Shown here in pieces: positions 10,004 through 35,681 of a DNA stretch of 64,000 bases. The translations under genes and the position numbers were made by a program. The DNA is taken from the NCBI RefSeq assembly GCF_000145255.1, contig NC_014394.1, forward strand, positions 1,302,001 through 1,366,000, written 5' to 3'. Within the stretch, counting starts at the first letter, position 1, and each line of letters begins with the position of its first letter. The notes below the pieces were generated by a model. The model did no database searches. It was not told the origin of the DNA and saw only the letters and a list, made by a program, of their open reading frames with translations. Source of the stretch: Gallionella capsiferriformans ES-2. GTDB taxonomy: Bacteria; Pseudomonadota; Gammaproteobacteria; Burkholderiales; Gallionellaceae.

Positions 10004-10044
10004 TGAGTACGAAGCCTCGAAAGTATGCTTGCCTTAGTTATTGT

Positions 10045-10066
10045 CATCATCAATATGATTATGATG
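10045..10066. promoter_or_regulatory. Inverted repeat in the divergent jetA / WYL-regulator promoter region
   Basis: CATCAT (10045-10050) and ATGATG (10061-10066) form a symmetric pair with a 10-bp AT-rich spacer, midway between two divergent operons. WYL regulators of defence islands usually bind an inverted repeat at their own promoter, so this is a candidate operator for the 10165-11067 product. The match is only six bases per arm. Confidence 0.35.
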
Positions 10067-10164
10067 TCGGATTATATTGGAATGATTGCGGCATTCTATT
10101 ACGACGCATATACTATGCGCAACAACACTCAAAATCCATCATTGATTTTAATTAACCGGACAGA

Positions 10165-11067: not shown

Positions 11068-11086
11068 ATTGAAAGAGTAATGAATA

Positions 11087-12841: not shown

Positions 12842-12845
12842 GAAT

Positions 12846-15618: not shown

Positions 15619-16361
15619 ACTTCGACTGGTGCCCCGGCATCCGCGAGGCTTGCTCGCACTGGCGCGACGCGCCAATGCTGCAGCAGACTTTCGAGGAATT
15701 AGAGCGGGCGCTGGCCGAAGATAACGACGCCTGCATCGACTCAGCAAAGGCCATCGTCGAGGTGATTTGCCAGATCATCCTGCAGGAGTTGGACTCGCCG
15801 TCAAACCCAGTGCGCCCAGTCGAGGCACTTCCGACCTTTGGTGCATGGATGAGTGCAGCCGTCCGGGCGTTGAAGCTCGGGGACATCAGGCATAACGGTT
15901 TCCAGAAGCTGGTGTCACAGCACAGGAAGCTCACGGACGCATTGGGCGACCTGCGCAACGACGCTGGAACGGCGAGCCACGGGCGTGAGGGGTTCTTGCA
16001 ACGCCTGTCGGTTCATCATCGACGCGCGGCGGTGTTGTCGGCGGATGCCATCGTCACCTTCCTGCATCAGGCCTATCTGGAAGCGGAGCTGGACTTGGTG
16101 CGAACACGCGAACCTTATGAGCGGTTCGGCCACCTGCACGAGCTGATAGATGCGCACGTTTCATTGCAAGCAGACGTCGATGAAGAAGGTTTTCTCACGA
16201 TAGACGTGACCCTGCCTTCCGGTGATGTCTTGCCTTTGCGGGTTGAAGCAAGTCGCTTGCTTTACCAACTGGATCGTGACGCCTTTGTCGAGGCGTTGAA
16301 CGCTGCGCGAGGGGCTCCTGCTGCGGTGGTGGAGCAAGACGAATTACAAGGGGAAGAATGA
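15615..16361 (+). CDS. Abortive-infection (Abi_C) family protein inside the type I operon
   Basis: A 248-residue soluble protein resembling the abortive infection C-terminal (Abi_C) family. Residues 25-160 contain the helical region found in that family, including [14 protein letters not shown], then [11 protein letters not shown] near 112-122 and [14 protein letters not shown] near 138-151. The last 70 residues are a small acidic domain. It overlaps hsdS by 4 bp (ATGA) and hsdR by 4 bp, so it is translated as part of the restriction operon. The role of Abi_C domains is not established. It could sense or act when restriction fails; that is inference. Confidence 0.7.
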
Positions 16362-19300: not shown

Positions 19301-19576
19301 GAGAACGAGAGCGCGATTCAAATGATGGGTGACGACAAACTGAAACTTATCGCACACGAGTTGTTAGTCAGCCTGCGCGAGAACGTATCTGTGGATTGGG
19401 CGCATCGTGATTCTGCCCGCGCACGGATGCGAGTGCTGGTGAAGCGCATTCTGCGCAAGTATGGTTACCCGCCTGATCTGCAGGACGCGGCCGTGCAAAC
19501 GGTACTGCAGCAGGCCGAGGCATTGTCGTCGACGTGGAGCATGCCGAGACCTGGCAGAGGAGATGGCCATGGCTGA
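16358..19576 (+). CDS. hsdR: Type I restriction endonuclease/translocase subunit
   Basis: HsdR translocates DNA with ATP and cuts it when blocked. The 1072-residue chain shows the PD-(D/E)XK nuclease motif (PDVVVF with D145, then IELK with E159 and K161), helicase Walker A HTQGSGKS near 324-331, the DEAHR box near 422, and FTGTP near 460. A C-terminal helical domain of about 350 residues would bind HsdM. It follows the Abi_C gene with an ATGA overlap. The downstream TIR gene starts inside its last three codons. Confidence 0.95.
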
Positions 19577-20024
19577 TGTATTCATTTCTCACTCGCAGGT
19601 TGACTTACCACTTGCCGAATTCCTTCACAGGCACTTGACGCAGGAAGGCTTGGAGGTCTATTTGGCCTCGGTATCGATGCAGCCAGGTGAACGCTGGATG
19701 CCGCACATTATGGAAAGTTTGCGAAGTTCGACTTGGGTACTCTGCCTCGCAAGCCGAACGGCGTGCGCGTCACCTTGGGTGATGCAGGAAATGGGCGCGG
19801 CGATTGTCGGAAACAAGAAGTTGATCCCGATTATTTGGGACCAGCCTGCAGAAGCACTCCCGGGATGGATGAAACAATTCCAAGCTGTAAATCTGGCTGG
19901 AGCCAGCCAGCAGGATGCAGTGGCTGCATTTGGTCGAATTGCGGAGACCATTAAGTCCGAAAAGCAAAAGGGGTTGGTCATTCTCGGCTTGTTGGTGGCT
20001 GGATTGGTTGCCTTCGGGAAATGA
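19569..20024 (+). CDS. TIR-domain protein with a C-terminal membrane helix
   Basis: The 151-residue protein is a compact TIR domain. Such domains hydrolyse NAD+ or make ADP-ribose-type signals in bacterial immunity. It starts [12 protein letters not shown], has the BB-loop region MQPGERW at 37-43 and [11 protein letters not shown] with the likely catalytic glutamate at residue 74. Residues 135-150 ([16 protein letters not shown]) form a membrane segment at the extreme C-terminus. The ATG at 19569 is six bases after AGGAG, better placed than the one at 19563. It overlaps the end of hsdR and is followed 1 bp later by a second TIR gene. Confidence 0.85.
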
Positions 20025-20025
20025 T

Positions 20026-20574
20026 ATGACCGGTTTTTACAGCGATCCGAATATGAACGGCTTGTTGGCTGCGCTGATGAAGCCAGCACGGCGGAAGGTG
20101 TTCGTCAGTTATCACCACGGTGGCGATCAAGCGTATTACGACGAATTCTCTCGCTTCTTTCACGATCAGTATGAGGCGATTCGGGATAACTCGTTGGAGC
20201 GCATGATCCAGAGCGATAACACCGAGTACGTGATGCAACAGATCCGGGAGAAATACATTGCCGGCACATCCTGCACCATTATTATGATTGGCGCGGAGAG
20301 CCACCAGCGCAAGTATCTGGATTGGGAGATCAAGGCTACCCTAGACAAATGCCACGGCTTGATTGGGATCGTTTTACCCACACATACCAAGAACCCTGCT
20401 GGCGAGATCGTTGTGCCGGATCGCTTTCTTGATAACTGCAAGAGCGGGTACGCGGCTTGGGCACACTGGAGTGAACTTACGGCTCAATCATTGACCCAAT
20501 TGATCGACACCGCTATCGCGAAGCCGCAGTGGCAGATCGACAACTCACGACCGATGCGTCAGCGAAACGGATAG
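20026..20574 (+). CDS. ThsB-like TIR protein (DUF1863 type)
   Basis: A 182-residue protein whose layout resembles ThsB, the TIR sensor/enzyme of Thoeris defence that makes a cyclic-ADP-ribose isomer. KVFVSYHHGGDQ (24-35) is the first strand and loop. TSCTIIMIGAES (81-92) followed by DWEIKATLDKCHGLIGI (99-115) matches the ThsB arrangement, with E101 as the probable catalytic glutamate. The frame extends upstream, but the ATG at 20026 lies 1 bp after the previous stop, and translation is probably coupled. No ThsA-type partner (SIR2-SLOG or membrane-Macro) is visible nearby. Its partner may be one of the adjacent genes. Confidence 0.78.
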   Translation: MTGFYSDPNMNGLLAALMKPARRKVFVSYHHGGDQAYYDEFSRFFHDQYEAIRDNSLERMIQSDNTEYVMQQIREKYIAGTSCTIIMIGAESHQRKYLDWEIKATLDKCHGLIGIVLPTHTKNPAGEIVVPDRFLDNCKSGYAAWAHWSELTAQSLTQLIDTAIAKPQWQIDNSRPMRQRNG

Positions 20575-20583
20575 GAGATAGCT

Positions 20584-21150
20584 ATGGCCGTAATGAAGAA
20601 GGGCAACTTTTCGATAGATATTGGGTTTCTCAAGCTGGGGGCCGATTTTGAGGAAAGTGACCGGCAATGTGCGTGGGAACTGTATACCGAGCTGGCGACG
20701 AGAATTGCAGTTACCGGAAAATCCAAAGATCGCGACTGCACGGATTTTTCAGGGGAGGTCTATGCCGAAAGCCTTACGTCGTTGCACACGTTTTTCGGCG
20801 AGGCGAGAAAGATCATGCGCCAGTTCCCAGTCTGCTCGACCTATGTGAAGCCGAGAAAACTTTTTGGAATTCGTACTGGTGCGGGTATAGAAAATCATCT
20901 GGGTGCGTTGATTCATCGCGCAATGCGTGATGTGCTCCGGCCATTTCTTGAGACTTGGCAAGCCGACTATCGGTTCTGGTGGGAGAGCACCAGTGACAAG
21001 ACACTACCGCCTTTCGAGCGGCAAAAAGCATATCCGAAACTAAACGACATGATTTCTCAATGGAGCGATGTTCGAGCGATCATGCGCGCCATCCAAGATG
21101 AATTGGTGAGCATGTACAAGTTAGTAGATGTCACTAAGCTGTCCTCATGA
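20584..21150 (+). CDS. Unknown 188-residue protein within the TIR gene cluster
   Basis: I do not recognise this protein. It is soluble with no membrane segment, and the middle and C-terminal parts look helical. Conserved-looking stretches are AWELYTELATRIAV (about 30-43) and FLETWQADYRFWWES (about 121-135). It starts after GGAGATAGCT, 9 bp downstream of the ThsB-like gene, and overlaps the next TIR gene by 4 bp, so it is embedded in the operon. Lying between two TIR proteins, it could be an effector, adaptor or inhibitor; none of these is shown by the sequence. Confidence 0.8.
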   Translation: MAVMKKGNFSIDIGFLKLGADFEESDRQCAWELYTELATRIAVTGKSKDRDCTDFSGEVYAESLTSLHTFFGEARKIMRQFPVCSTYVKPRKLFGIRTGAGIENHLGALIHRAMRDVLRPFLETWQADYRFWWESTSDKTLPPFERQKAYPKLNDMISQWSDVRAIMRAIQDELVSMYKLVDVTKLSS

Positions 21151-22097
21151 CCTCACCAAAAGTATTTCTGAGCCACGCAAGCGAAGACAAAGAACGCTTC
21201 GTGCTGGATTTCGCGCGACAGCTGCGGGAAAACGGCGTTGATGTTTGGCTTGACCAGTGGGAGATGAAACCGGGCGATAGTTTGGTGGACAAGATATTCG
21301 AGGAGGGGCTGAAAGAGGCAAGCGCAGTGATTATTGTGCTCTCGACCACCAGCGTTCAAAAGTCGTGGGTACGAGAGGAGCTGAACGCTTCTGTTGTAAA
21401 TCGGATCAGTCGTGGAACAAAGCTGATCCCGGTCGTCATTGACGAATGTGACGTACCAGAGAGCCTCCGATCTACTGTCTGGCAGAAAGTGGACTGCCTC
21501 GACGACTACAGTCAGAGTCTGCAGCGCATCTTGTCTGCGATTTTTGATGTCAGCGACAAGCCACCTATCGGTAATCCCCCCGCGCGATTTTCAGGTGCGG
21601 AGCCCCTGATTTCTGGCTTGACGCGCATCGACGATTTGGTCTTACGTGAGATCGCTCGTCTACAAATCACGGAGAACAATGGGCTGGTGATGTTTGATCA
21701 GCTCCGTGCTGAGCCAGCACTTTCGGACGTACCTCAGCAGGAGTTACTTGATTCGCTGGAAATCCTCGGACAGAAATATCTGATCAAAATCTCCTATGTG
21801 CTTGGCGCGCCCCTCTCGCACGTTGTGCTCACGGATTTTGGTTTTCAGCAGTTTGCAGAGGCATACGTTCCAGACTATAACGAGGTGGTCGCCCGGATTG
21901 CTGCGCTACTCGTCAACGAGAACGTCTGCCGGAACGAAGAATTGGCGTCTCGAATTGACAGGCCGGTCGGGTTCGTGGATTTTGTGCTGAATCTCATGGA
22001 GAGTAACAACCACATCAAAATGTCGAAATATATAGGGGGTCAGTCGCAGGTTTGGCAGATATCGCCGTCACTGCGTCGGGCATTGCTGCAGTCATAA
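21147..22097 (+). CDS. TIR-domain protein with a C-terminal helical/winged-helix extension
   Basis: The 316-residue protein has an N-terminal TIR domain (residues 4-145): KVFLSHASEDKERF, the WLDQWEMKPGDS loop at 34-45 and KSWVREELNAS with candidate catalytic glutamates at 77-78. After a linker (about 150-165), residues 165-316 look like tandem winged-helix modules (for example ELLDSLEILGQKYLIKISY and NEELASRIDRPVGFVDFVLNLM). This could bind nucleic acid or another protein. It overlaps the unknown gene by 4 bp (ATGA) and is the last gene of the run. A hairpin follows the stop codon. Confidence 0.85.
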   Translation: MTSPKVFLSHASEDKERFVLDFARQLRENGVDVWLDQWEMKPGDSLVDKIFEEGLKEASAVIIVLSTTSVQKSWVREELNASVVNRISRGTKLIPVVIDECDVPESLRSTVWQKVDCLDDYSQSLQRILSAIFDVSDKPPIGNPPARFSGAEPLISGLTRIDDLVLREIARLQITENNGLVMFDQLRAEPALSDVPQQELLDSLEILGQKYLIKISYVLGAPLSHVVLTDFGFQQFAEAYVPDYNEVVARIAALLVNENVCRNEELASRIDRPVGFVDFVLNLMESNNHIKMSKYIGGQSQVWQISPSLRRALLQS

Positions 22098-22261: not shown

Positions 22262-23626
22262 TTATGTATGTGCGCGCTTTAGCTGTTCGATATGATCTAT
22301 TGCATTTGATATTCGACATGATGAAATCCTTAAAAACTCCTCAAGATCGGCAACCATTACGCCATGTTGTGAACATGCCTCCAGAATAGTTGTACCTTGG
22401 CTGAAATCCCTAAATGCGTGTAACAACGCACTAGATTCGTAATGTTTCAAGCTTGGAAACCCCATGCTTATCATTTTTTCGCGAGTATTTTTTCGATCTA
22501 AATTAAATCTGTCCGCAACATCTGAATAAATTCCATGACATTCAATGTATGCGGAATACAAAGTATGTCCATTCCAAAAGCTCTGGCCCAAGCGCTTTGG
22601 CGATGGATACTTTGCCTTTTCTTTACTTGGATCAATGGGCGGAGCGGTAAAGGCACCTAATGCGATTTCAGTTGAATTGTACGTTGCAGCCAAAACCAAT
22701 GAATAACTCTCATAACTAGCAACATACCCCATTGATTTTACTATCCCATCGATACAAAAAAAATTCTGATTTATATGCTTTTTCTGGTTACTACTTGCAT
22801 AGACGCTGTTGTTGAACCAGTCAGTTGGAGCCATTTTTATTACATGGTCAGAAAGCAGAATTTTCCGACCATATTCTCCGACAGGAAAACACAATGCTTT
22901 AACTCGTAAATTTATCCTGCCATTTACGATAGCGACCGTCAGTGGTTTAGCTTGTTTCAATAACGCGATAGCATTAGCTGAATATTTTTGAACGAATTCT
23001 GGTGTTTCATTGATATGTAAACAAAAGGAAGGTAGGGGTGTAATCATTTTTTGTTGACGCCAAAAATGGGGCAGTTTTGAAAATGGATTGTCAGAATTAA
23101 CCCGATTTAACACTTCTCCATGATTTGGACACCAATCAACTCCATTGAGATGATGGCTTCTCCTAAAATAACTAAAGCCGTGCTGATCAAAATCCTCTTG
23201 AATACAGCTTAAACACACACAAGCGAATTTTCGTGGGATGAGCATTCCTAGCCGCCGATTAATAGACATAGCTTCAGGGGAGCCATGTACAAATTCATTT
23301 CCATATTTTGCGGCCACTCGCATCACTGGAAGCATCGAGTGATTAAGTGCATAGTCTTGAGTCGGAATTCTAGCTGCCTTGGCCAAGATATCCAGAGTGG
23401 ATAGGTCCTGAACTTTTTTTCCTTGCTGCAACTGATTAGTACGCAAATTTTTTATTAGCTTGTCAAATTTTCCAAGGCCATTGAATATTGCAATCCTGTG
23501 ACCATGTCCTAAAGCAATTTCGTCCGACATAGGTTTAAACATTATTATTTCGTCTCCACTGCCAATAACATAAATCTGTTTAATTTGAGCACCGCAGCAA
23601 GTAATCTTGCTGTGTTCATACCGCAT
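22262..23626 (-). CDS. Second TniQ-family target-selection protein
   Basis: TniQ/TnsD proteins choose the target for Tn7-like transposition and recruit TnsC. This 454-residue member has the TniQ zinc-binding pattern: C138 and C141 (CVCLSC), then H-x-x-N-G-x-x-WCPNHG with C166 and H169. The N-terminal 28 residues before MFKPMSDE look unlike the family. The internal ATG at 23542, behind a GGAG, is an alternative start, while the ATG at 23626 overlaps tnsD by 11 bp. It is too divergent to call TnsE or a CRISPR-associated TniQ. Having it beside a full TnsD suggests a second targeting route; that is inference. Confidence 0.75.
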   Translation of the reverse strand: MRYEHSKITCCGAQIKQIYVIGSGDEIIMFKPMSDEIALGHGHRIAIFNGLGKFDKLIKNLRTNQLQQGKKVQDLSTLDILAKAARIPTQDYALNHSMLPVMRVAAKYGNEFVHGSPEAMSINRRLGMLIPRKFACVCLSCIQEDFDQHGFSYFRRSHHLNGVDWCPNHGEVLNRVNSDNPFSKLPHFWRQQKMITPLPSFCLHINETPEFVQKYSANAIALLKQAKPLTVAIVNGRINLRVKALCFPVGEYGRKILLSDHVIKMAPTDWFNNSVYASSNQKKHINQNFFCIDGIVKSMGYVASYESYSLVLAATYNSTEIALGAFTAPPIDPSKEKAKYPSPKRLGQSFWNGHTLYSAYIECHGIYSDVADRFNLDRKNTREKMISMGFPSLKHYESSALLHAFRDFSQGTTILEACSQHGVMVADLEEFLRISSCRISNAIDHIEQLKRAHT

Positions 23627-25361
23627 GGCGCCATAGGGCGGGTGCTGATTCCAGCTCTACATTGATTTTTTCACGGTAGTCAGTCGAGCGTAGCCCTGTT
23701 TTTCTCAATACTTGCCACGCTTTCACAGGCCTGCCGGCTGACTCTAGTTCCTGAATCGCCCAGCGAATCCGACGAAGCTGGAAGTTCTCAAGATTTTCCA
23801 ATGTGCGATCAAGGAATGCTTTTGTCTGGGGCAAAAGGTGCTGGTGCGTGAGCAGCCAGTCGCGTTTTCCGATGCGGCGATTGAGTTCTGCAAACGTTAT
23901 GCGCACAGGAGGGGATTCTTTATAAATAAGAGCTGGCAATGAGCTTAGTTTGGCGATACAGGCTTCGTCTACTTCAACCCAATCACGCCTGAAGGAAGCC
24001 GATATATTTTTTCCAGGTGATGATGCTAATTGTTTTTTAATACTTGTATTTTTCGCCGGTATTTTTAGGGGGGCATCCTTTGATGGAGACTTGCACTGCT
24101 TGGATTGTTTCTCAATATCCAACGCGCGCGTTAGGCGAAATACTGTCTTCGGGTCGAGTTGAAGAATCTGCCCAATTTTTCGTCGGCTGACGCCATCATC
24201 TATGAGTTTTCTTAATGCTGGTTTTAGCAGTGGCCCGTATTGCTGAAAACGCGGTGGACCCACTTCACTTGTTGCCGAATTGAAGCTGCGTGTATAAACG
24301 TAGCCACAATTGCATGTGAACACCCCAGTAATTTTTCCGTGATTGTTATGTTCTGTAACCTCTTTAATTGGTGTAGCGGTTCGATGCTGAGCCAGTGGGT
24401 TAAGGCATGCCCAAGGCCCAGTGCCAAACCGAGAAACATGCCTTTCGCGTAGTGCTAGAAAATTCTGCACTAGCAGGTGGTAGATCGGGTGGCTTGCCTT
24501 GCGATGCTTGCGCACCATAATCTTGAGCCAGTTCCCTGAAAATCCGTTGCCATCCAACAGATTTTTAAATAACTCCAGAGTGCGTCCATAGAAATTCCTA
24601 AATTCTTGAGAGAAGCGCTGCTGGTCCATTCGGCAATCGGAAAGTGCCAACCCAGTTTCTATCATCCTGTCACGATAGAAAACTGTCCAACCGGCGAAAG
24701 TGCGTGGCGTCGGCGGACTCTCTAGCAGTTCGGTGCTTAATCGCGCCAAACTCTGTAGGTGAGAGAGTGTTTTATTATCCACCATCGGGATAACTGGTCG
24801 CGCATGTTGCGGACAATTCGCGCGCGTCGCCGCGATAAATTCATGCCGACTGTGCTGCACGAAGGAAAGATTGCTTTCCAATAATAGGCATCCATGCTCT
24901 GGACAAACCAATACGCTGGACAATTGGTGATCTCTGCGCCAATACATTTCGCCGTGGCTGGCGATCATTTTTTGTGTGCATTCCAAACAGAAGCGAAAAC
25001 TCTCAATTCGCCCAACTCTGGATGCAGTTAACCCCAAACGAATGTGTAGGTTTTTAACTATTCCTCGCATCATTGCTTGCCGCACCTTGGCTTGCAACGA
25101 TGGTGGCTCGAACGCAGCGACATATGGAAAAAGCGTTAGCGTGTCTATCAGATGATTAGCCGTTAAGTTTCGTTCGGTTGGAATACGATCCGCCAATTCC
25201 TGGAGGTTTCCCTGTAGGTCTATCGATGCAATTACCTGCTGCTTGCCAAAAAGAGTCTCCATCGTGTGCATTGATCCTGGCAAACCCGTGTGTCGGTGAT
25301 AGCGTGCCAGTACGCTATATAACAACTCTCCAGGATAGACAGCAGGAAAATACGACAACAT
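23616..25361 (-). CDS. tnsD: TnsD-like target-site selector
   Basis: TnsD recognises a fixed chromosomal attachment site and recruits TnsC. The protein (about 581 residues) begins LSYFPAVYPGELLYSVLARY, the normal TniQ-family opening. It has a CCCH zinc motif (FCLEC at about 126-129 and VCPEHG at about 154-158) and a long C-terminal region with helix-turn-helix-like stretches (for example LIDDGVSRRKIGQILQLD) that would read DNA. A GTG three bases upstream is an alternative start; the ATG at 25361 fits the AGGA better. It lies 9 bp after tnsC. The element's position at the 3' end of folD suggests that gene holds the recognised site. Confidence 0.88.
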   Translation of the reverse strand: MLSYFPAVYPGELLYSVLARYHRHTGLPGSMHTMETLFGKQQVIASIDLQGNLQELADRIPTERNLTANHLIDTLTLFPYVAAFEPPSLQAKVRQAMMRGIVKNLHIRLGLTASRVGRIESFRFCLECTQKMIASHGEMYWRRDHQLSSVLVCPEHGCLLLESNLSFVQHSRHEFIAATRANCPQHARPVIPMVDNKTLSHLQSLARLSTELLESPPTPRTFAGWTVFYRDRMIETGLALSDCRMDQQRFSQEFRNFYGRTLELFKNLLDGNGFSGNWLKIMVRKHRKASHPIYHLLVQNFLALRERHVSRFGTGPWACLNPLAQHRTATPIKEVTEHNNHGKITGVFTCNCGYVYTRSFNSATSEVGPPRFQQYGPLLKPALRKLIDDGVSRRKIGQILQLDPKTVFRLTRALDIEKQSKQCKSPSKDAPLKIPAKNTSIKKQLASSPGKNISASFRRDWVEVDEACIAKLSSLPALIYKESPPVRITFAELNRRIGKRDWLLTHQHLLPQTKAFLDRTLENLENFQLRRIRWAIQELESAGRPVKAWQVLRKTGLRSTDYREKINVELESAPALWRHAV

Positions 25362-25370
25362 CACTAATTC

Positions 25371-26990
25371 CTATGCCGCAATATCTAGTAATGGTGGTTT
25401 GACCATTCCAGCCACAAGCAACGCTTCGTATCCAGAATGTCCAGCTTGTTTGCCTTGAGTGACTATGCGACGTAAGTCATGCTCTGGTTGTGCTGGGAGC
25501 TCATCCTTTTTAGGTGATTTAGGTTTTTTTATTTTGATGGGCTTAGCAGCCAGCTTTTCCGCTATTGCTGCCATCAGTAGTAGTGGATCGGCAGAGGAAT
25601 GTTGAGCCCGCGCTTCGTTGAGTAATACTTTCGCAACATCGTCGGCGACATTGAGTGAGCGTAAAGCCACCAGGATTGGATCAAGATCCTCTGAATTTTG
25701 TGTAGGTGTCTGTACTTTATTCGCCTTAGTGGAGTGTTGCAAAACATCTGCGCCTTGCGATTGGATTGCATCTGCTATTATTTGCTCAACATGCGCTTGT
25801 AGGGGCAGCAGGTCATCGTACTTTAGCAGTGCATTGCTGTCATTCATTCGAAGAGCGTCAATCATTGGCCGTACGATACGGAAGTCTTCACGTGCAACCT
25901 TGCGCAGAAGTTGTGGTGTCAGAATTTCCTGTGTGCCGCGCACATCACCTATACCGACTACCCGTAATTGAGCGAGCATGAAAAGTTTGACGACAATATC
26001 CAAGATGCCTTGACTTTCGTCGTACAATACATCACGAACTTCTTGACTAATTGGTGTGTGGTCGCGAGTCCACTGATGTTTCCATAGTTTTTCGATAAAA
26101 TAGTCCCATGCTTTGTTTTTCTGCATACGATCCCAAACCAATGAGCCTAGGCCGCTTGCTCTTCGTGCTTGGCGGAAATTCTCCTGCAGCATTGGAACCG
26201 CGCTAAGCGTACCGATGAGGATCACCGGCACACTGATCGTATTGACCAGGGTAACTAAGAAATTCAGCAGCGCATCAGGCCCGATCTTGGTTTTATTCAG
26301 GTGCTGAATTTCATCAATTACCAGCACGCCAAGTGCATGCAAGTTGGCTACATGCGCCATGTGTACCATCATCTCGTCTACACTGGCACGCCGGCTACCA
26401 TACGCGTTGAAATAGTTAGTTCCGACGAGCCGATCTACGGCTGAAAAGAAGTTGATGCACAACTGTTTTGGTGATCCCTGATGTGGGCAGTCGAGCTTTA
26501 GCCATACGATCTGCACCAGAGTAAAAGGCGCAGAATGTTGGATGCGTTGTGGATATTGAAGCAGGACTTTCTCAATTGACTTCGACTTGCCAATACCAGA
26601 ACAGCCTACAAGTGCGAAGCTGGCAGCAGTGTTCTCCACAGGATGAAGCGTCGCAACGTGTAGCGAATTCGCTTCAATGCGCTCAGCACCATTTTGCAAA
26701 TGGCGAATGTAATCGTGAGTTAGTGGATTGCGTCCGACATAACCTTGCCGCAAAAGCATGCCAAACCTTTCAGCCAATTGAAGTTGTCGCTCTAGTGGCT
26801 CGAAATATCGACCCAATCGCATGATGCAGTGTTTGCGCAACTGCGCTGGATAAGTACGTTCCTTTTCATTGAACTCTGGATGGTTTGCAAGTGCCATCAA
26901 CATTTCACGTTGCAATAACAATGGCGGTAACTTGGCAATGAATGGATTGTCTTGGTATTCGCGTAACACGGGAATATCAGCGCTTTGCAT
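25371..26990 (-). CDS. tnsC: TnsC-like AAA+ ATPase, transposition regulator
   Basis: TnsC forms ATP-dependent filaments on DNA and links the target selector to the TnsAB transposase. The 539-residue protein has a Walker A (GCSGIGKS, about residue 130) and a Walker B (LGVLVIDEIQHL). After the AAA+ core a basic, low-complexity C-terminal tail appears (KPIKIKKPKSPKKDE). Three ATGs lie close together (27008, 26996, 26990). The last has AAGGGGG six bases upstream and is chosen. It overlaps tnsB by 14 bp. Confidence 0.92.
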   Translation of the reverse strand: MQSADIPVLREYQDNPFIAKLPPLLLQREMLMALANHPEFNEKERTYPAQLRKHCIMRLGRYFEPLERQLQLAERFGMLLRQGYVGRNPLTHDYIRHLQNGAERIEANSLHVATLHPVENTAASFALVGCSGIGKSKSIEKVLLQYPQRIQHSAPFTLVQIVWLKLDCPHQGSPKQLCINFFSAVDRLVGTNYFNAYGSRRASVDEMMVHMAHVANLHALGVLVIDEIQHLNKTKIGPDALLNFLVTLVNTISVPVILIGTLSAVPMLQENFRQARRASGLGSLVWDRMQKNKAWDYFIEKLWKHQWTRDHTPISQEVRDVLYDESQGILDIVVKLFMLAQLRVVGIGDVRGTQEILTPQLLRKVAREDFRIVRPMIDALRMNDSNALLKYDDLLPLQAHVEQIIADAIQSQGADVLQHSTKANKVQTPTQNSEDLDPILVALRSLNVADDVAKVLLNEARAQHSSADPLLLMAAIAEKLAAKPIKIKKPKSPKKDELPAQPEHDLRRIVTQGKQAGHSGYEALLVAGMVKPPLLDIAA

Positions 26991-29142
26991 CGTCATCCCC
27001 CTTAGCACCCATTATTTCCATAATGTCAGGTTCGCTGTAGTCATCAGTCACTACTCGGGGAAACGACAGAATATCGGCGCTCTTAGCTGGTGCCGGTTTA
27101 TCAGTATCGAAACGGAATGTTTCTGATCCACGGTTGGATTGTTTCTCATCAGCACGATGCTTATGTATATTTTTAGTGCGGCTGGCAGCACTTGCGGTGC
27201 TCGGCTCGCCTTTTTTCTTGACCGCATCGTCTACAATATTTTCGATATCTGCGGACAAGCCGACTGCTGCAAGTTGCTGCCGGGGCTGGCGTTTAGCTGA
27301 CACCTGTTGTTCGGCTTGTTGCTGCTGTGCTATTTCCCAAATCGACATCTGTTGGTGCGCACGGCTTCGTTCTGTCATTGTGCAGGTCTGAAACTGCATC
27401 GACACTTGGTTATCATGCAGATAGATTTCATCCATGTTGCGTGGATCGTAGGAAATCTTCACTTTCCAATTCCCTCTTTGACGGGCGCGATCAAACCACC
27501 GCTCCTCAATCGTTTTTTGGCAGGTGTAAAAATCACCATGAAATCGGATACCGTTTACCGTAACCGTTGCCTCATCTACCGGCAGAAGGCTAAACCGTAC
27601 CAAGTTTTCCGGATACTGGCGCAGGCTACCGCTACGATTGGCGATGCCCCATTCCCACAAGTCAATCGGTACGGCAGGTATGTTGTCGGCGGCGAGATCG
27701 CGATCCTTGTCATAGCGCTTTAGCTCGTGGTGGTTGTTGTAATACAGCACGACCTCGATGATGATTTGAGTGAACTGATCCAAATCAAGCACGGCATCCA
27801 ACCGATAGTCCTTGCCGCCACGCGCACGGAAATCAACATCAATGTAACCTGGAACATAGGGTTTGAACTTGGCGGGCAATAATTTAAAGCGTTGCTCCAC
27901 GATACCTTTCCAGTCAGCCCGGAATGCCGCCGCCGTTTCAACAGTGACATTGAAGTTGTTGATCAGTGTTTCGATCATGCGGCTTTCGATTTCACCACGA
28001 TCACCTAACAGGCTGGCTGGCAAATGGCGACACGGCCATTCATCGGGTTCAATGCTGCGCCCGAATTTTTTACAGAATGCTTGTTTGTCAGACGCCGTGT
28101 TTGCTAGTGCCATCATTGCGCCGACCCAAGACGGTCCTTCCAGACCGATGTAAATGCCAGTAATCATCCGGCTGAATACGTCGATGACGACATACAACAC
28201 TGGTCTGCCAATGATTCTGTGACGATCCATTCGCGAAACCAGGTACACGTCTGCAATCGTTGCATCAATCTGATACCGAGCGCCAGGTCCCCATACTTCC
28301 GCTGTTGATGTACCCAGCAGACCGCGCAGATCTTTGTCGTAGATTCTCGGTTTCAGTCGCTTGCGTTTAATGTCAAGACGATCATTGTCCTGTTCCAGCC
28401 AGTAATTGAACTGGTTGAATGTTGGAAATCCTGTCGTAGCCATATTAGCCTTAGGGCTGTGCGTGACACACAGGGTTTCAGGGTTTATTGAACGTTCACA
28501 AAAGAACTCCTTGATCATCTGATCGTACGAGCCTCGCAGGGTAAATTTGGCATTTATTGTGTAATAGCGTGCCACAGCGACACGAAACACCTTTCGGATT
28601 TCTTCGGTGATGTTGAGACCTATTTGATCGCCAAATTTGCGCGGACGTCCACGTTTTACATCAGATTTGGATTGGTGGGATTTACCCTTGCCGCCAGAGT
28701 TGGCATAGTCCGGCAACAGCGCATTAGGTGTCTGGCCCCGCTGCCAGTATCGGCGCAGGTACAGATATAGAGTCGGTCTTGTTGCCAAGCCCGCTGCGAC
28801 GCATTTAGCAACCTGCTTTGCTCGATATGTTGCGGAGTAAATGCTCGGCTCGGCACGAACCAAGTCAGCAATTGCTTTCCATGCAAGGTCACGTCTTTGC
28901 TTACGATTTTCCGGAATGGCACTTTCTTCGAGTACTAACAAATAAGGATCTGCAGTAAATACCCTGGCTCTGCCAGAATTAAGGTCGCTTTCGAGCGCCT
29001 GTTGCTGGATGAGTTCTGGTACGGCATACTTCGCATTCACATCAATTACGAATGCCACAGGCATCTCTGGGTGTATCCATAAAATCCTGATTGTCTTCGC
29101 TTCAGGCTCCGCGTAATCCAGAATGTCGTTTTGTAATAGCAT
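26977..29142 (-). CDS. tnsB: TnsB-like DDE transposase
   Basis: TnsB binds the transposon ends and joins 3' ends to target DNA. The 721-residue protein has an N-terminal helical/HTH region, a retroviral-type integrase core with D293 (QIDAT), D381 (LGDRGE) and E416 (KGIVEQRFK), and a C-terminal beta-barrel and tail that normally contact TnsC. All three catalytic acids are present. The ATG shares one base with the tnsA stop (TAATG). Its binding sites are the three 16-bp repeats at each end of the element. Confidence 0.94.
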   Translation of the reverse strand: MLLQNDILDYAEPEAKTIRILWIHPEMPVAFVIDVNAKYAVPELIQQQALESDLNSGRARVFTADPYLLVLEESAIPENRKQRRDLAWKAIADLVRAEPSIYSATYRAKQVAKCVAAGLATRPTLYLYLRRYWQRGQTPNALLPDYANSGGKGKSHQSKSDVKRGRPRKFGDQIGLNITEEIRKVFRVAVARYYTINAKFTLRGSYDQMIKEFFCERSINPETLCVTHSPKANMATTGFPTFNQFNYWLEQDNDRLDIKRKRLKPRIYDKDLRGLLGTSTAEVWGPGARYQIDATIADVYLVSRMDRHRIIGRPVLYVVIDVFSRMITGIYIGLEGPSWVGAMMALANTASDKQAFCKKFGRSIEPDEWPCRHLPASLLGDRGEIESRMIETLINNFNVTVETAAAFRADWKGIVEQRFKLLPAKFKPYVPGYIDVDFRARGGKDYRLDAVLDLDQFTQIIIEVVLYYNNHHELKRYDKDRDLAADNIPAVPIDLWEWGIANRSGSLRQYPENLVRFSLLPVDEATVTVNGIRFHGDFYTCQKTIEERWFDRARQRGNWKVKISYDPRNMDEIYLHDNQVSMQFQTCTMTERSRAHQQMSIWEIAQQQQAEQQVSAKRQPRQQLAAVGLSADIENIVDDAVKKKGEPSTASAASRTKNIHKHRADEKQSNRGSETFRFDTDKPAPAKSADILSFPRVVTDDYSEPDIMEIMGAKGDDDAKR

Positions 29143-29990
29143 TAGGCGAACCTCCTAGCTGAATCAGCGACACCCGCCGAAGTAACTATGTCGAGCACGT
29201 TGAGCGGTGCGTTCATGTCGAATTTTGCATCGAGATTCATCACGATATGTTTGATTGCGACTAAATGCCGTAGCACCATCAACCCTTCTCCAACTGAAAA
29301 CCCCTGTGTCCCTTCCAATTGATGAATGAATTGTTTAATCGTCATGTCGCCAGCCTGCTTGCAGCAGGCGGCGAATCGTGTACACCGATCCTCCCAATAT
29401 CCAGGGTATGGAACCACCATATGCTCCAGTGAATTCATCTCGTGTAGCCAGTGAAGATTTTTGATGCGTTGAGCCGGAAGGTCTTTCTCAGTGATCAAAC
29501 CCCAGTCGACTTTTTTAATTTCCCAGTAGCGGCGTTCTATTTCCTGTTTTTCCAGAGTGCGGTCATTGTCCAGTTCCCCGTATGGCTTTACTGATCGCGC
29601 TAACAGTAAGGCGCCATTACTTGTTTGGAAATTAACCAGAAAATCGGTAGTCATCACAACGTCGGTTTGACTCTGCGAGTCGATCGGATGACGCACTCCC
29701 ATCTCTGTCGCGATTCGCCGGGTTACATCTCTCTCCAGTGGAAACTGTTCGCGGATGTCTGTGACGGCGTTCGACCAGTCAAGCAACAAGAACGTTGCCG
29801 TTTCCATATCCGACAGCAAGTGATGCTCTCGTCCAGTCTTAACACCATGAATACGACTAGATCTGCCGCGCGAGGATACGTCCTGAACAGTCAACCATGG
29901 GCGGTATTCCGGGCCGCAGCCTTGCCCGCGACCTTCCTTTGTAAAGCGGATAATTTTGTCTTCATCAATGCCGTATCTTCGCTTTGCCAT
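29142..29990 (-). CDS. tnsA: TnsA-like endonuclease of the heteromeric transposase
   Basis: TnsA cuts the 5' ends of the transposon, giving cut-and-paste movement when paired with TnsB. The 282-residue protein shows the endonuclease fold with E63 (SDMETA), D116 (TTDFLV) and K135 (SVKP). The position of Q130 in Tn7 TnsA appears to be serine here. The C-terminal winged-helix region follows (EKQEIERRYW, then WGLITEKDLP). It is the first gene of the tns operon, with an inverted repeat CTAGCTGGCTAG 117 bp upstream. Confidence 0.92.
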   Translation of the reverse strand: MAKRRYGIDEDKIIRFTKEGRGQGCGPEYRPWLTVQDVSSRGRSSRIHGVKTGREHHLLSDMETATFLLLDWSNAVTDIREQFPLERDVTRRIATEMGVRHPIDSQSQTDVVMTTDFLVNFQTSNGALLLARSVKPYGELDNDRTLEKQEIERRYWEIKKVDWGLITEKDLPAQRIKNLHWLHEMNSLEHMVVPYPGYWEDRCTRFAACCKQAGDMTIKQFIHQLEGTQGFSVGEGLMVLRHLVAIKHIVMNLDAKFDMNAPLNVLDIVTSAGVADSARRFA

Positions 29991-30106
29991 GAAAAGGTAT
30001 TTCCCTATAAATTATGTATAGCCCGTCTAATCTGGCTGAATCATCAAGCTGAAATGAGAAAGCCGAAGGGCAGTAATTTTCACGTATGCTTCCCTGTTTT
30101 TGTAGA

Positions 30107-30118
30107 CTAGCTGGCTAG
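30107..30118. promoter_or_regulatory. Palindromic operator candidate upstream of tnsA (CTAGCTGGCTAG)
   Basis: Perfect dyad CTAGC-TG-GCTAG between the stop of the 30144-31115 gene and the start of tnsA. The same twelve bases followed by AGT/AG recur at 31126-31137 in front of the neighbouring gene. Two identical sites at the two promoters of a transposition module suggest one regulator acting on both. Confidence 0.65.
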
Positions 30119-30143
30119 AGTAAGCCGGTTAAAGAAAATAAAT

Positions 30144-31115
30144 TCATTCATTCAATGCTTTTAATAAAAGACTTTTGTAAAGCTCGCAGCATTTAATCCC
30201 GCTATTGATACTTCTGCTGGGTGGGCAGACTACTTGGAGGTACGCCGAATTGTGTATGACTGAAACACCTATTCCTTTAGGGATGTTTGCGATAACTTCA
30301 TTTAAAAGCGTATCACGCGTTACAACCCACATAAAGTCACAATATTGCATGAGTGTTTCTAACGTTTCGCAAGTTTGAGAATACATGGGGGTGCCAATGA
30401 CCACTATGCCATGTAATGTAAGTTGAGATTTTAGCTTATGACCTGTGGCAACAACTGCATCAAACATAACGAACTTATTTCCGCTTCCTCTTAAGGTCGG
30501 CTCAAAATGAGTAAAAACCTTATAGAAGTCATTAGTGCCGGAATGGATCAAATCTCCGCGTTTATTGGAAAGCGCACTAAAAATTTCCGCCTCCATTAAA
30601 GTGTGACGTTGGGAATGGACTGTGGAATCATACTTGGGCGCATCCCGTTTTCCTCTTGCTGTTTGCCCAGCAAGTACGGGTCTAAATATTGTCCATGCGG
30701 CGCGTAGTTCCGCTCGTGTAGCTTCTCCTGAAACTACGCGTTTAGAAAGATTTTGTACCATCTCATATGGCGCAACTCTTTCAATTTTGGATAATAGCTC
30801 AAGATTCTCAGGACTTATTTGATCGGGCAGATTTTTCAAATCAGGTAACTGAATATTGAGTGCCAACATTTTTTTCTGCAAACCAGAGTAGTAGCGCCCT
30901 GCAGTAAGGTAGCGCCATAAAATACTTTTTGTCTTTTTTAGTTGCGCTGCACACTGGTTTAGCCATTCAGTGAACGATCCGGAGTCCTCGCGCCATATTT
31001 CATGCAATTCTACTGAATCCAACAAGAGGGCAGTTTCAGCCCAAGTGCGGGAATCACCACGTAGGATGGCGGTCAGTTCTTGTTGTGTTTCTGATAATGA
31101 AAAATATTGACTCAT
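30144..31115 (-). CDS. Probable transposition-module regulator, function not established
   Basis: I do not recognise the family with confidence. The N-terminal half of the 323-residue protein is helical, with a possible helix-turn-helix at about 55-80 (AQLKKTKSILWRYLTAGRYY). The C-terminal part (about 180-300) weakly resembles the MmcB-type PD-(D/E)XK fold (VMFDAVVATG, then QYCDFMWVV and IPKGIGVSVI), but the expected E-x-K is replaced by VIGT, so nuclease activity is doubtful. It lies upstream of tnsA on the same strand. A CTAGCTGGCTAG palindrome sits just before its own start and another before tnsA. This suggests an autorepressor or timing regulator; that is inference. No clear ribosome site precedes the ATG. 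Confidence 0.6.
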   Translation of the reverse strand: MSQYFSLSETQQELTAILRGDSRTWAETALLLDSVELHEIWREDSGSFTEWLNQCAAQLKKTKSILWRYLTAGRYYSGLQKKMLALNIQLPDLKNLPDQISPENLELLSKIERVAPYEMVQNLSKRVVSGEATRAELRAAWTIFRPVLAGQTARGKRDAPKYDSTVHSQRHTLMEAEIFSALSNKRGDLIHSGTNDFYKVFTHFEPTLRGSGNKFVMFDAVVATGHKLKSQLTLHGIVVIGTPMYSQTCETLETLMQYCDFMWVVTRDTLLNEVIANIPKGIGVSVIHNSAYLQVVCPPSRSINSGIKCCELYKSLLLKALNE

Positions 31116-31125
31116 ATCTGTATTC

Positions 31126-31137
31126 TAGCTGGCTAGA
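31126..31137. promoter_or_regulatory. Second copy of the CTAGCTGGCTAG palindrome
   Basis: Identical to the site at 30107-30118 and 10 bp upstream of the ATG of the putative regulator gene. A bound protein here would block transcription initiation or early elongation of that gene. Confidence 0.65.
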
Positions 31138-31224
31138 GTTATTTTGCAAGTAATAATCGCACTGTATTGATAATTTTGGGCTAAGTAAATTTTGAGGAAG
31201 TGTAGTTAGGCCTGTATTTTGGAA

Positions 31225-31467
31225 TTATGTTGATTTATGCAATCCAATGTTGACCCACCTTGAAATATGATGCCACAGTTTGTGAAATAAAGAATTGAAG
31301 AGCGAAATGCCTATGATGGCAAAATAGAAAATGTGGTCAAGGGGTGTAGAATATCCAAGGATTAAGGGGAAGGTCGCTATGTGCATCAAAGTGCCATTCA
31401 TAAAATACACATAATTTAGCCATGCTCCATGGGTTAGCGGCGTATTGACATACATCACCGCGCTCAT
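31225..31467 (-). CDS. Doubtful 80-residue hydrophobic protein
   Basis: The frame predicts two possible membrane stretches (around residues 15-37 and 45-62, with IFYFAIIGISLF) and a basic end. There is no ribosome binding site before the ATG, and I recognise no family. It may be chance or a remnant. Confidence 0.22.
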   Translation of the reverse strand: MSAVMYVNTPLTHGAWLNYVYFMNGTLMHIATFPLILGYSTPLDHIFYFAIIGISLFNSLFHKLWHHISRWVNIGLHKST

Positions 31468-31741
31468 GACAGTTCACTCACTTGCAGAACTGCTCACAAC
31501 GCCTCTCACCACACGTATGGCGGGAGGCTGAAGGCATACGTGGCAGCGGAAGGAGGCAACAAAGTCGCATGGCATGGTCAAGGGCATCTTTCCGATTCGG
31601 ATGATGATGAAGGGACTGGGTGATGAGTTGTGGCGCGAGAAGGAAAAGTGTGCGATGGCTTGGCTGGAAGTGACACTGCCTACTCTACAAAGAGCGTTGA
31701 CTTCGGAAGTGTGGTTGGGGAGTGAATATCTATTGGAAACG

Positions 31742-31749
31742 ATAATCGG
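31742..31749. repeat. Left 8-bp target duplication of the IS (ATAATCGG)
   Basis: ATAATCGG is repeated at 33101-33108, immediately outside the other IS tip. IS256-family elements normally duplicate 8 or 9 bp. Confidence 0.85.
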
Positions 31750-33100
31750 GGGGGTGTCCTGAATTTTGTGTAAACGGGTTTTCAATTACTCGATAAAATC
31801 CGTTCTTCAAACTGGATGGAGAAGCGGTTCAGAGCGGCTTTCCAGTCCCGGATTGGCATTGTCCACTTCTTGCTGATGTTTCTCAGCGCCAGGTAAAACA
31901 GCTTGGTCACAGCCTCGTCGGTCGGGAATGAACTGCGAGTTTTGATGACTTTGCGCAGGCTCATGTTAATCGATTCGATAGCGTTTGTCGTATAGATTAC
32001 TTTTCTGATTTCAGGCGGATAGTCAAAAAATGGGATGATCCGTGCCCAGTTCCGCCGCCAGCTCAGCCCAATAGACTGGTAATCCTTGTCCCATTTTTTC
32101 TCGAAGTCGGTCAGCATTTGTTCGGCGAGTTCGACGGTCGACGAGGTGTAAATCAACTTCAGATCAGCGGCGACTTCCTTCTGCATTTTCCACGGCACAA
32201 AGTTCAGGCTGTTGCGGACCATGTGCACGATGCACAGTTGCACCGCCGCTTTCGGATAGACTGCCTCGATGGCTTCCGGGAAGCCTTTGAGTCCATCGAC
32301 ACAGGCAATAAAAATGTCTTGCACGCCCCGCGTCTTCAGTTCAGTGACCACCTGCAGCCAGAACTTGGCACCCTCGGTTTGGGCGATCCACAGCCCCAAT
32401 ACTTCCTTGTGCCCATCCATGTTCACACCGATCGCCAAATACACTGCTTTGGTCCGCACCGCACCGGCGTCACGCACTTTGACGTGGATGCAGTCCAGAT
32501 AAAGAATCGGGTACAGCGGATCGAGCGGGCGTGCCTGCCAGACCTTCAAATCCTCGCTCACGGCGTCCGTGACCGCCGAGATGAGGCTTGGTGATACCTC
32601 GGTGCCATACATCTCTTTCAGGTGACCCTGGATCTCACGCACGCTCAGGCCTCGGGCGTACAGCGAGATGATCTTGTCGTCAAAACCTGACCATCGGGTC
32701 TGATGCTTGGCAACCAGTTGCGGCTCGAATGCGCCTTGGCGGTCGCGGGGAATATCCAGTGGCAATTCACCAAAATCGCCCTGCAAGGTCTTGGCACTGT
32801 GACCGTTGCGGGTGTTGCCGGTGCTGTTGCTAACAGCGCCGCTCCTACCATGGCCGAGGTGTTCGGTCATCTCGGTTTCGAGTGCCCGCTCAACCAGCAT
32901 CTTGGTCAACTGCTTGAGCAGGCCATTCTCACCAATCAGGTCTTCGGGTTTCTGGTAGTTGGCCAGAAGCGCATCGGCCAGTTTTAATAGTTCAAGATCG
33001 GGTTTAACTCGTTTGTTACGTTTCGGTTCGGTCATTGTTGCTCCTTTATGCTGGCAGTTTCCTGCCAAATGACCGTTTACACAAAACTATTTACACCCTC
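31750..33100. mobile_element. IS256-family insertion sequence, 1351 bp
   Basis: The tips are imperfect inverted repeats: GGGGGTGT on the left and GAGGGTGT on the right (read inward). Both are followed, after six variable bases, by TTTTGTGTAAACGG. An ATAATCGG duplication flanks the element. One mutator-type transposase fills it. The clean duplication and intact gene suggest a fairly recent insertion into the transposon cargo. Confidence 0.93.
31782..33035 (-). CDS. IS256-family (mutator-type) transposase
   Basis: DDE transposase that moves the surrounding IS. The 417-residue product has family landmarks: LGHGRSGA near residue 60, LPLDIPRDRQGAFEP near 95, YARGLSVREI near 130, the first catalytic aspartate in ILYLDCIHVKVRD, the second in FIACVDGLKGFPEAI, and the glutamate in YTTNAIESIN. 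The ATG at 33035 (MTEPKRNKR) has AAAGGAG upstream; the frame also runs 11 codons further. It is intact. Confidence 0.95.
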   Translation of the reverse strand: MTEPKRNKRVKPDLELLKLADALLANYQKPEDLIGENGLLKQLTKMLVERALETEMTEHLGHGRSGAVSNSTGNTRNGHSAKTLQGDFGELPLDIPRDRQGAFEPQLVAKHQTRWSGFDDKIISLYARGLSVREIQGHLKEMYGTEVSPSLISAVTDAVSEDLKVWQARPLDPLYPILYLDCIHVKVRDAGAVRTKAVYLAIGVNMDGHKEVLGLWIAQTEGAKFWLQVVTELKTRGVQDIFIACVDGLKGFPEAIEAVYPKAAVQLCIVHMVRNSLNFVPWKMQKEVAADLKLIYTSSTVELAEQMLTDFEKKWDKDYQSIGLSWRRNWARIIPFFDYPPEIRKVIYTTNAIESINMSLRKVIKTRSSFPTDEAVTKLFYLALRNISKKWTMPIRDWKAALNRFSIQFEERILSSN

Positions 33101-33185: not shown

Positions 33186-35681
33186 ATGAAAAGAGCCTTT
33201 CTTTCCCACTCATTCCTAGACAAAGAGTTTGTTCGTGCAGTTGCCCTCGATTTGGGGCGGCAATTTTGCTTATTTGATGAGCAAGTTTTTGATACTGGCG
33301 AGTCATTCAAACAATCAATTGAAAAACACTTGGACGATTCTTCAATTTTTGTTTTGTTCGCCAGTACGGCCTCATTGAAAAGCATCTGGGTAGATTTTGA
33401 AATCGAAGAAGCGTGGTATCGTCGACTTGAAGGTCGACTTTCACAAACACTGGTGTTCATAACTGACACATCCATATCTCACGATGACCTCCCGCCTTGG
33501 CTAAAGAGAGCAAAGGTTTCAAGAGTGAATGTTGCCAAGATAGTCGCTCGTGAGATCAGGCAGCACCTAGAAGAGATGCTTAGAGTTGAGCAACATCCAT
33601 ACTTTGAAGGTCGCACAGAAGACCTTGGTCGTTTGCAAAAGTTGATGCGCCCGATAGCCGAGCCAGCTCCGCGAGTATTAGCCATTTATGGTTTACCTAG
33701 TATTGGCAGAAAGACTTTTATAAAAAAAGCAGCACAATTGATGCTTTCGTTTAATCGGGCAATCACGATTCAGATAGGCGAAAGTGACAAGCTTCAAGAT
33801 ATCGCAATAAAAGCGGCAAATATTCTTGAACCTTTCGCAACCAAGGCGGGCTTTGACAATATAGTGTCACGCATTAGGTCCGAATCTAAAGATCAACTAG
33901 TAAATAGATTGTTATCTGACTTGAGAGTTGCGGTTTCGAATAAGGAAATACCGGTTCTTATTGATGACGGTGGGGTATTTACGCAAGAAGGTTATTTTAC
34001 CGAAACAGCAAAGACGATAATCGACGCCATTAAAGGGCAAGACGACCTATATACATTTTTAGTTTCAACAAGAAAGCCCGTCGATACTCTACCATCCCTT
34101 CAACTTAAACCGTTAGAAATTGATGATGTAAAGAGGCTCATTGGTCAAATCTCAGCCTCACAATCTTTAACACCGCCACAAATATCTGAGCTGGCCGAAT
34201 ACGTAAACGGCTACCCGCCCTCCGCATATTATGCGATTGAACTTGTAAAGGCTTATGGGATTAATGCCGTTCTTGCAGACAAGCATAGACTTGTACAGTT
34301 CAAAGCAACAATCTTCGTTAAATATTTAGCTAGTCGTCTGCTCACTGAGCACCAAAAATCCATACTTGTAATGCTGGCTCAATATAGCCCCATACCAATG
34401 CAAATTTTGGTAGACACGCAGAATCGCAGTCCTTCAGAACTTGCTGGAGACATAATGCAACTGGTGGACCACTCACTTGTCATTCCAAATGAGACTGGTC
34501 TTTACTCAATTGCCGGGCCAATTGTTGATGCAGTGTCAAGCGAGTTTAGAGCTTTTGAGGTTGACCACAAAAAGGTCTATGAATCACTAAAGGCACTATT
34601 GTCAGATGAAAGTCAGGAATTGCCTAGATTGGATTTGTATAGGCTTTTCTTTAAGGCATCGATCCGAAGCAATGCCAAAGATGGCGCAGCCTTTCATATG
34701 ACAAATGATTTAATCAAACTAGTCGAAGATTATTACCATGCTGGAGAATATAAGCCGTGCATAGCAGTTGCAAAGCTAGCCATTAATGAAGATGCACAGA
34801 GTTTTACTGCCCATGACTACCTTATTCGCAGTCTTGTCCAAGAAGAAGAATGGCAGGCTGCAGAGACCGAGATAAGAAATCTTGAAAAGTTTTCCCAAAG
34901 CAGGGATATATATTTTCTAACAGGTTTTCTTAATCGAAAAAAAGGAAATTTTGTTACTGCCATTGATAACTTTCTTAAGGCGGAAAAGCTGGGTCGGACA
35001 GGCGCAGCCCTTAAGCGAGAGATCGCAAGCTGCTATTTCCATAACGATCAACTTCCTGAGGCTAAGCGTTATGTGCATGAAGCTCTATCAAGGAATAGTG
35101 ACAACCGATTTGTACTAGATATTGCTATTCAAATCGCCGTCCGAGAGGGAGATGAACAGACAGCTCGAACTTTACTTGAGAGACTATCCGCGTTCGATAC
35201 GCCTTCGTTCGTAAAACACAGATTATCAACAATAGAGCTTAGCTTTGGCACACTAAAAAATGCGCTCAATGCCGCTATAGATTCTGTAAATTTGGCGGAT
35301 TCTGAAAATAAAAAACCAAAGTTTGGAATGTTGGCGCAATTAATAAATTGTTACACCCGCACTGGACAATATTCCGAAGCAGAGAACACTTTAAGTCGCT
35401 TATCACGTATATACTCCAATCAGCGACCAGACATTCGAGCTGGTCTTGAGTGCAGAATTGAAATTGAGCGCAAACACTTCCCGCGAGCGTTGTCTATCTT
35501 GGAAAATATCGGAAATAAATCACAGATATATTTAGCAATGCGTCGTGATGCAATAGATGGAATTCTTAATGGTGTCGTAAATGATGACCAAAGGATCAAG
35601 TACGAACAAGAACTTGCTGCTCTCAACGCACAGCTTAATACGTATGACCCGAACGGTGCCTGGCTAACTCTAATTAGATGA
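33186..35681 (+). CDS. TIR-NTPase-TPR protein, probable single-gene immune sensor
   Basis: The 831-residue protein combines a TIR domain, a STAND-like NTPase and helical repeats. This is the plan of nucleotide-binding immune receptors in bacteria and eukaryotes. Residues 1-130 are TIR (AFLSHSFLDKEF, then SIWVDFEIEEA with candidate glutamate E72). The P-loop region is GLPSIGRKTFI at 169-179; the usual G-K-T/S is G-R-K-T, which may be degenerate. Residues 490-830 form TPR-like helical pairs. The base composition is visibly more AT-rich than the rest of the cargo. It starts after AAGGATCCACC, 85 bp beyond the IS. A strong terminator lies about 150 bp downstream. Confidence 0.85.
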   Translation: MKRAFLSHSFLDKEFVRAVALDLGRQFCLFDEQVFDTGESFKQSIEKHLDDSSIFVLFASTASLKSIWVDFEIEEAWYRRLEGRLSQTLVFITDTSISHDDLPPWLKRAKVSRVNVAKIVAREIRQHLEEMLRVEQHPYFEGRTEDLGRLQKLMRPIAEPAPRVLAIYGLPSIGRKTFIKKAAQLMLSFNRAITIQIGESDKLQDIAIKAANILEPFATKAGFDNIVSRIRSESKDQLVNRLLSDLRVAVSNKEIPVLIDDGGVFTQEGYFTETAKTIIDAIKGQDDLYTFLVSTRKPVDTLPSLQLKPLEIDDVKRLIGQISASQSLTPPQISELAEYVNGYPPSAYYAIELVKAYGINAVLADKHRLVQFKATIFVKYLASRLLTEHQKSILVMLAQYSPIPMQILVDTQNRSPSELAGDIMQLVDHSLVIPNETGLYSIAGPIVDAVSSEFRAFEVDHKKVYESLKALLSDESQELPRLDLYRLFFKASIRSNAKDGAAFHMTNDLIKLVEDYYHAGEYKPCIAVAKLAINEDAQSFTAHDYLIRSLVQEEEWQAAETEIRNLEKFSQSRDIYFLTGFLNRKKGNFVTAIDNFLKAEKLGRTGAALKREIASCYFHNDQLPEAKRYVHEALSRNSDNRFVLDIAIQIAVREGDEQTARTLLERLSAFDTPSFVKHRLSTIELSFGTLKNALNAAIDSVNLADSENKKPKFGMLAQLINCYTRTGQYSEAENTLSRLSRIYSNQRPDIRAGLECRIEIERKHFPRALSILENIGNKSQIYLAMRRDAIDGILNGVVNDDQRIKYEQELAALNAQLNTYDPNGAWLTLIR

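Follow-up and report, generated by a model that had tools for sequence, protein, structure and literature searches.

A putative ParB/KorB-like autorepressor and its matched operator-like sites in a Tn7-like element of Gallionella capsiferriformans ES-2 and in other recombination modules

Beside the tns operon of Gallionella capsiferriformans ES-2, in a 64,000-nucleotide stretch of the genome (NC_014394.1, positions 1,302,001 to 1,366,000; the whole stretch is called the window here), lies a gene of no confident family, and the same palindromic sequence is found upstream of both the gene and the operon. The locus therefore raises the question of what kind of protein this gene encodes and whether the shared sequence is the means by which it controls transposition as well as itself. 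The operon is that of a Tn7-like element, as tnsA, tnsB, tnsC and a TniQ/TnsD target selector are all present downstream of the gene (Table 1). The ends of the element were not located, since no inverted repeat joins 31140-31760 to the remainder of the window. To the left of the tns operon, the window contains defence genes (4466-22097), including Wadjet (JetA, JetC), type I restriction-modification and several TIR or ThsB-like proteins. On the other side, an IS256-type element with 26-nt inverted ends (81% complementary) adjoins the gene at 31752-33098, with a TIR-NLR-like gene beyond it at 33186-35681; an ARAGORN tRNA-Ser call at 32798-32881, antisense within the IS256-family transposase gene, is probably a false positive.

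Table 1. Features of the regulator locus (window coordinates) and of the IS21-like element in the same genome.
Feature	Coordinates	Strand	Basis or remark
Regulator gene, 323 aa; predicted ParB/KorB-type DNA-binding half and degenerate MmcB-like half	30144..31115	-	ORF, translation, homologs, structure model
Predicted N-terminal helical DNA-binding domain, residues 1-157	30645..31115	-	AF2 model, VIA-align structure comparison
C-terminal MmcB-like PD-(D/E)xK-type domain, E-x-K lost	30147..30623	-	paralog PF06319 match, family profile, alignment
Operator-like dyad, regulator gene side	31125..31136	.	extended repeat 31119-31139
Operator-like dyad, tnsA side	30107..30118	.	extended repeat 30101-30121
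Predicted sigma70-type promoter of regulator gene, TTGCAA-16-TAGAAT	31122..31149	-	overlapped by dyad
Weak predicted promoter of tns operon, TTAACC-17-TAGTCT	30104..30132	-	overlapped by dyad, same register
tnsA	29142..29990	-	PF08721, PF08722
tnsB	26977..29142	-	Mu-transpos_C PF09299
tnsC	25371..27008	-	AAA_22, TniB
tnsD (TniQ and TnsD domains)	23616..25364	-	PF15978 at 1.2e-87
Second TniQ-family gene	22262..23626	-	PF06527
19.1-kb IS21-like element	L008:7037 to about 768.2 kb of the same genome; second copy from L009:6878		

A scan of the window found the sequence CTAGCTGGCTAG in two exact copies in one orientation, one upstream of tnsA and one upstream of the regulator gene, both of which are read on the minus strand. 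This agrees with the first-pass annotation, which had placed a shared perfect dyad at these two positions; the arms (CTAGC/GCTAG) are indeed perfect, but the central TG breaks the palindrome, and 9 bases, instead of the ten given there, separate the dyad from the ATG of the regulator gene. Both dyads are contained in a 21-nt direct repeat with 90% identity between its copies, TGTAGACTAGCTGGCTAGAGT on the tnsA side and TGTATTCTAGCTGGCTAGAGT on the regulator side, and the regions upstream of the two genes are more alike than all 2,000 random pairs of window segments (p = 0.0005, which is the floor of this test). Across the 3.16-Mb genome CTAGCNNGCTAG has just two sites, both of them the window dyads, compared with 11 occurrences of its reversed-pattern control.

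The genome contains two further copies of the gene, at 751.6 and 2914.9 kb, which encode mutually identical paralogs (P0002) with 39% identity to the window protein. IS21-like istA and istB come about 36 bp after each of them, and each copy is again accompanied by two sites, TAGCTGGCTA before the paralog gene and TAGCCGGCTA between the paralog and istA. The pattern TAGCYRGCTA occurs at 10 sites genome-wide, of which six flank the three gene copies (two per copy); simple arithmetic puts the chance expectation at about 0.003 for a target of roughly 1 kb. Both paralogs are located inside a 19.1-kb unit, together with istA-istB and metal-efflux-type genes. On sequence grounds this unit is a mobile element, transferred as a whole along with its metal-efflux-type genes, since its two copies are 99.98% identical, it is bounded by TGCG...CGCA, and the short duplications flanking it differ between the two places (read as AATAG and CCCCG).

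Tn7-like loci without the regulator gene provide a control for these observations. Upstream of tnsA in nine such loci, zero occurrences of TAGCN(1-2)GCTA were found, with TnsA identities of up to 54%, TnsB identities of up to 47% and no regulator gene beside tnsA. Because the loci without the gene are also without the site, the site travels with the regulator gene and not with tnsA. A second Tn7-like tnsABC set in the ES-2 genome, at about 3.124 Mb (L199 5954-10381), has neither a regulator gene beside tnsA nor a site.

The family is rare, with matches in 1-4% of the sampled Pseudomonadota genomes, some of which are MmcB-type proteins. In four other genomes or lineages, homologs lie before a tnsA-tnsB, istA or tyrosine-recombinase operon and have matched sites before both genes. 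At locus L021 the family gene is followed by a tnsA-like gene (PF08722), tnsB and an ATPase gene, at L101 by istA, and at L102 and L103/L104 by unknown genes and a tyrosine recombinase (PF00589), with the exact 12-mer of the window upstream of the recombinase operon at L103. The occurrence of the rigid window 12-mer in 13 regions of seven other loci gave a Fisher p of 2e-7, and the similarity between own site and next site within each of five other elements gave a Fisher p of 1.2e-6, although some single sites in L021, L101 and L105 depart from the rigid 12-mer. Locus L105 (9007-10582) contains two tandem family copies, the second truncated, and TTTAGCCGCTAGA precedes the following gene. Conservation of dyad and gene together, which the first-pass annotation had proposed as a check, is thus seen at both positions and in independent elements. 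The gene, which the annotation had linked to the tns operon, is not tied to Tn7-like elements, as IS21-like elements and tyrosine-recombinase modules carry it too.

More distant relatives are found outside such modules. Homologs on Enterococcus plasmids (about 22% identity) have a long dyad of the TTTACTATAAnnnnTTATAGTAAA type just upstream of the gene, and compensating changes in its outer arms are seen among plasmids (GCC/GGC, GTC/GAC, ACC/GGT). Over 230 Enterococcus plasmid records carry the homolog, which in the viewed regions (L002, L004, L025, L026, L027) is flanked by a MazF/PemK-type toxin gene on one side and a Fic gene on the other, with a resolvase gene nearby. A Flammeovirga plasmid homolog (L024 6995-8065) has two dyads of related type upstream of the gene and is located about 360 bp upstream of a cas6-cas3 (CRISPR-Cas) operon, while another family member (L107 7701-8591) directly follows DISARM drmA-drmB (PADLOC) and a phospholipase-D-like gene. 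The DISARM-linked L107 homolog and the short N-terminal homolog L106 have no recognisable dyad; the gene without the dyad, which had been named in advance as evidence against a regulatory link, was therefore encountered outside recombination modules, and inside them no such case was found. No homologs were found in viral contigs, either by protein and pattern scans or by profile search of the pattern matches, or in annotated phages, and at the sensitivity used the family does not look like a phage one.

The regulator protein has no match in Pfam and no confident family in NCBIfam, PHROGs or PADLOC. An AF2 model of residues 1-160 alone, with one homolog as alignment, reached a pLDDT of 82.9, and rows 1-14 of its VIA-align comparison are all DNA-binding domains of ParB, Noc and KorB (Z 7.4-6.3), led by the KorB-operator complex 1r71 (Z 7.4, rmsd 3.5, 111/116 residues), before the first unrelated row at Z 5.8; Z values of 7-8 fall short of conclusive where models are helical. 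The full-length model returned much the same list of structural matches. The kinship of the N-terminal half with the ParB/Noc/KorB DNA-binding domain is judged from these models to be probable and not firmer, since Foldseek E-values for the N-terminal model are weak and a profile comparison with R751 KorB is not significant (E 0.34; the sole stretch to align has the conserved LWR of the predicted recognition helix at its end). Family profiles also had no match among the sequences of solved structures. The first-pass annotation had called the product not a familiar repressor; for its DNA-binding half, the predicted fold and the KorB-like site provide a precedent.

The same annotation had proposed that a helical DNA-binding half is joined to a degenerate MmcB-like half, and this description stands. 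Structure prediction, which it had suggested for the MmcB-like fold, yielded a pLDDT of about 30-50 over the C-terminal half of the full-length model, too uncertain for use, and the likeness comes instead from profiles. Paralog P0002 matches PF06319 (MmcB-like) at 5e-4 with 20.3 bits, just under the Pfam cut-off of 22, the window protein (P0001) has no match to this family, and the family profile retrieves MmcB-type proteins weakly, through the C-terminal half only. In the alignment of this half D219 is retained, but HGIEIKG of the paralog corresponds to HGIVVIG in the window protein, such that the E-x-K motif has become V-x-I; it is intact in the IS21-linked P0002, in P0005 and in the Flammeovirga homolog. 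The likeness to MmcB-like DNA repair proteins thus consists of weak mutual profile matches over the C-terminal half, and the window protein no longer has the nuclease motif.

Among characterised systems, the closest parallel is KorB, the ParB-superfamily repressor of the IncP plasmids RK2 and R751, which represses by excluding RNA polymerase (PMC11790492) and whose operator is TTTAGC(C/G)GCTAAA (PMC2680271). Its half-sites, TAGC and GCTA, are those of the window dyads, and 12 of 13 positions of the L105 site agree with it; the family dyads differ in their outer arms and have a centre of 1 or 2 bp (1 bp in L105, 2 bp in the window). Fold and site are two independent lines that both point to ParB/KorB kinship. 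KorB acts as a repressor of its own operon and of others on a mobile element, and a similar arrangement is proposed here for the regulator. Unlike KorB, the regulator lacks the N-terminal CTP-binding ParB domain (its predicted DNA-binding domain begins at residue 7, and there is no Pfam ParB match) and a ParA partner (its neighbours in the window are tnsA and the IS256-family element); its C-terminal half is MmcB-like, and the two proteins have no detectable sequence similarity. A second comparison is CvkR, the MerR-type repressor of type V-K CRISPR-associated transposons, which acts through palindromes and for which gel shifts point away from autoregulation (PMC9938897). Both regulators are borne by Tn7-like elements with palindromes at promoters of the transposition module, but in the present locus a site lies at each of the two promoters and the fold is predicted to resemble ParB instead of MerR. 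In the open-access papers searched, no report was found of Tn7-like or IS21 elements under the control of a ParB/KorB-like regulator.

Predicted promoters suggest how the dyads might act. At six sites (both in the window, both at the paralog locus L008, and one each in L021 and L105), 8-9 bp separate the dyad centre from the end of the predicted -10 box. Under the strict criterion that the dyad centre falls inside the best predicted promoter, 7 sites were counted where 4.0 were expected, and because this excess is not significant (p = 0.08), overlap of dyads and promoters is suggestive only. About 6 nt separate the end of the predicted -10 box of the regulator gene from the ATG, and the transcript of the gene may therefore be leaderless. 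From the position of the dyads at the promoters together with the KorB parallel, we consider it likely that the regulator is a sequence-specific DNA-binding autorepressor that also silences the recombination operon. The N-terminal half would bind TAGC-N(1-2)-GCTA dyads (CTAGCCAGCTAG in gene orientation in the window), probably as a dimer. The first dyad covers the spacer and -10 box of the predicted promoter of the regulator itself, and the second lies in the same register at the predicted promoter before tnsA, so that bound protein would exclude RNA polymerase from both and repress both regulator and tns operon. When regulator levels are low, for example once the element has entered a naive cell, brief expression of the transposition genes would follow until the regulator accumulates. 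The MmcB-like half most likely serves in dimerisation or in sensing a DNA or protein signal, and is a natural candidate for the sensor of a signal that relieves repression. The first-pass annotation had left open whether an autoregulated repressor or activator controls transposition; the common site before gene and operon and the overlap with predicted promoters are in keeping with autoregulation, and repression is our inference.

It is unlikely, though worth weighing, that the bound protein is instead an activator or has a dual role, repressing itself and activating the recombination operon, for instance on a signal received by the MmcB-like domain. The tnsA-side promoter is weak by consensus (score 6.3), a frequent trait of activated promoters, and in L101, L102 and L103 the dyad before the family gene abuts the -35 box of the gene's own promoter and is not in the spacer. 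However, the dyads of the window, L008 and L021 share one register over spacer and -10 box, where repressors classically bind, and KorB, the nearest DNA-binding relative by fold, is itself a repressor.

Two other explanations deny the dyads a regulatory role. They could be structural or recombination sites (ParB-like loading sites, transposition enhancers or TnsB sites), with the protein as an accessory factor of transposition or partition, which would fit the parS-like sites that serve ParB/Noc loading, the resemblance of the second protein half to a nuclease fold and the location of the sites in mobile elements. This seems improbable, as one class of site accompanies three unrelated recombinase types (TnsAB, IstAB and tyrosine recombinase), related dyads occur both on plasmids and next to a CRISPR-Cas operon, all of these lie at gene starts and none at element ends, and the known ends of the IS21-like element differ in sequence from the dyad. 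TnsB sites in particular were rejected since the dyads accompany other recombinases. Hardly any weight is given to the possibility that the dyads are a functionless by-product of insertion, whereby a cassette and its promoter region were duplicated or inserted before tnsA and left direct repeats. In the window the copies are indeed arranged as direct repeats on either side of the gene, and Tn7-like relatives start directly with tnsA, but the best match between own site and next site is inverted in L021, L101 and L102, which is evidence against simple duplication, both sites persist in elements with only 23-38% protein identity, and the Enterococcus dyads show the compensating changes described above.

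To our knowledge, there are few cases in which it is understood how Tn7-like and IS21-like elements are silenced in the host. The autorepressor reading offers a regulator-operator pair that is defined to the base, is met again in modules of three kinds (Tn7-like, IS21-like and tyrosine-recombinase) and has relatives on plasmids from other phyla, and control of transposition thereby becomes directly testable. A broader and rather speculative proposal is that a portable regulator family, with a ParB/KorB-like reader head and an MmcB-like domain, has been swapped among unrelated recombination systems and defence loci, and that its copies in one genome cross-regulate, such that the Tn7-like and the two IS21-like elements of this genome, which share the 10-bp core, could silence one another and be released together by a DNA signal acting through the nuclease-like domain. 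With one gene and two sites found in quite different mobile elements, the gene seems to be a transferable off-switch of mobile DNA, and the pair provides a marker for finding more cargo-bearing elements.
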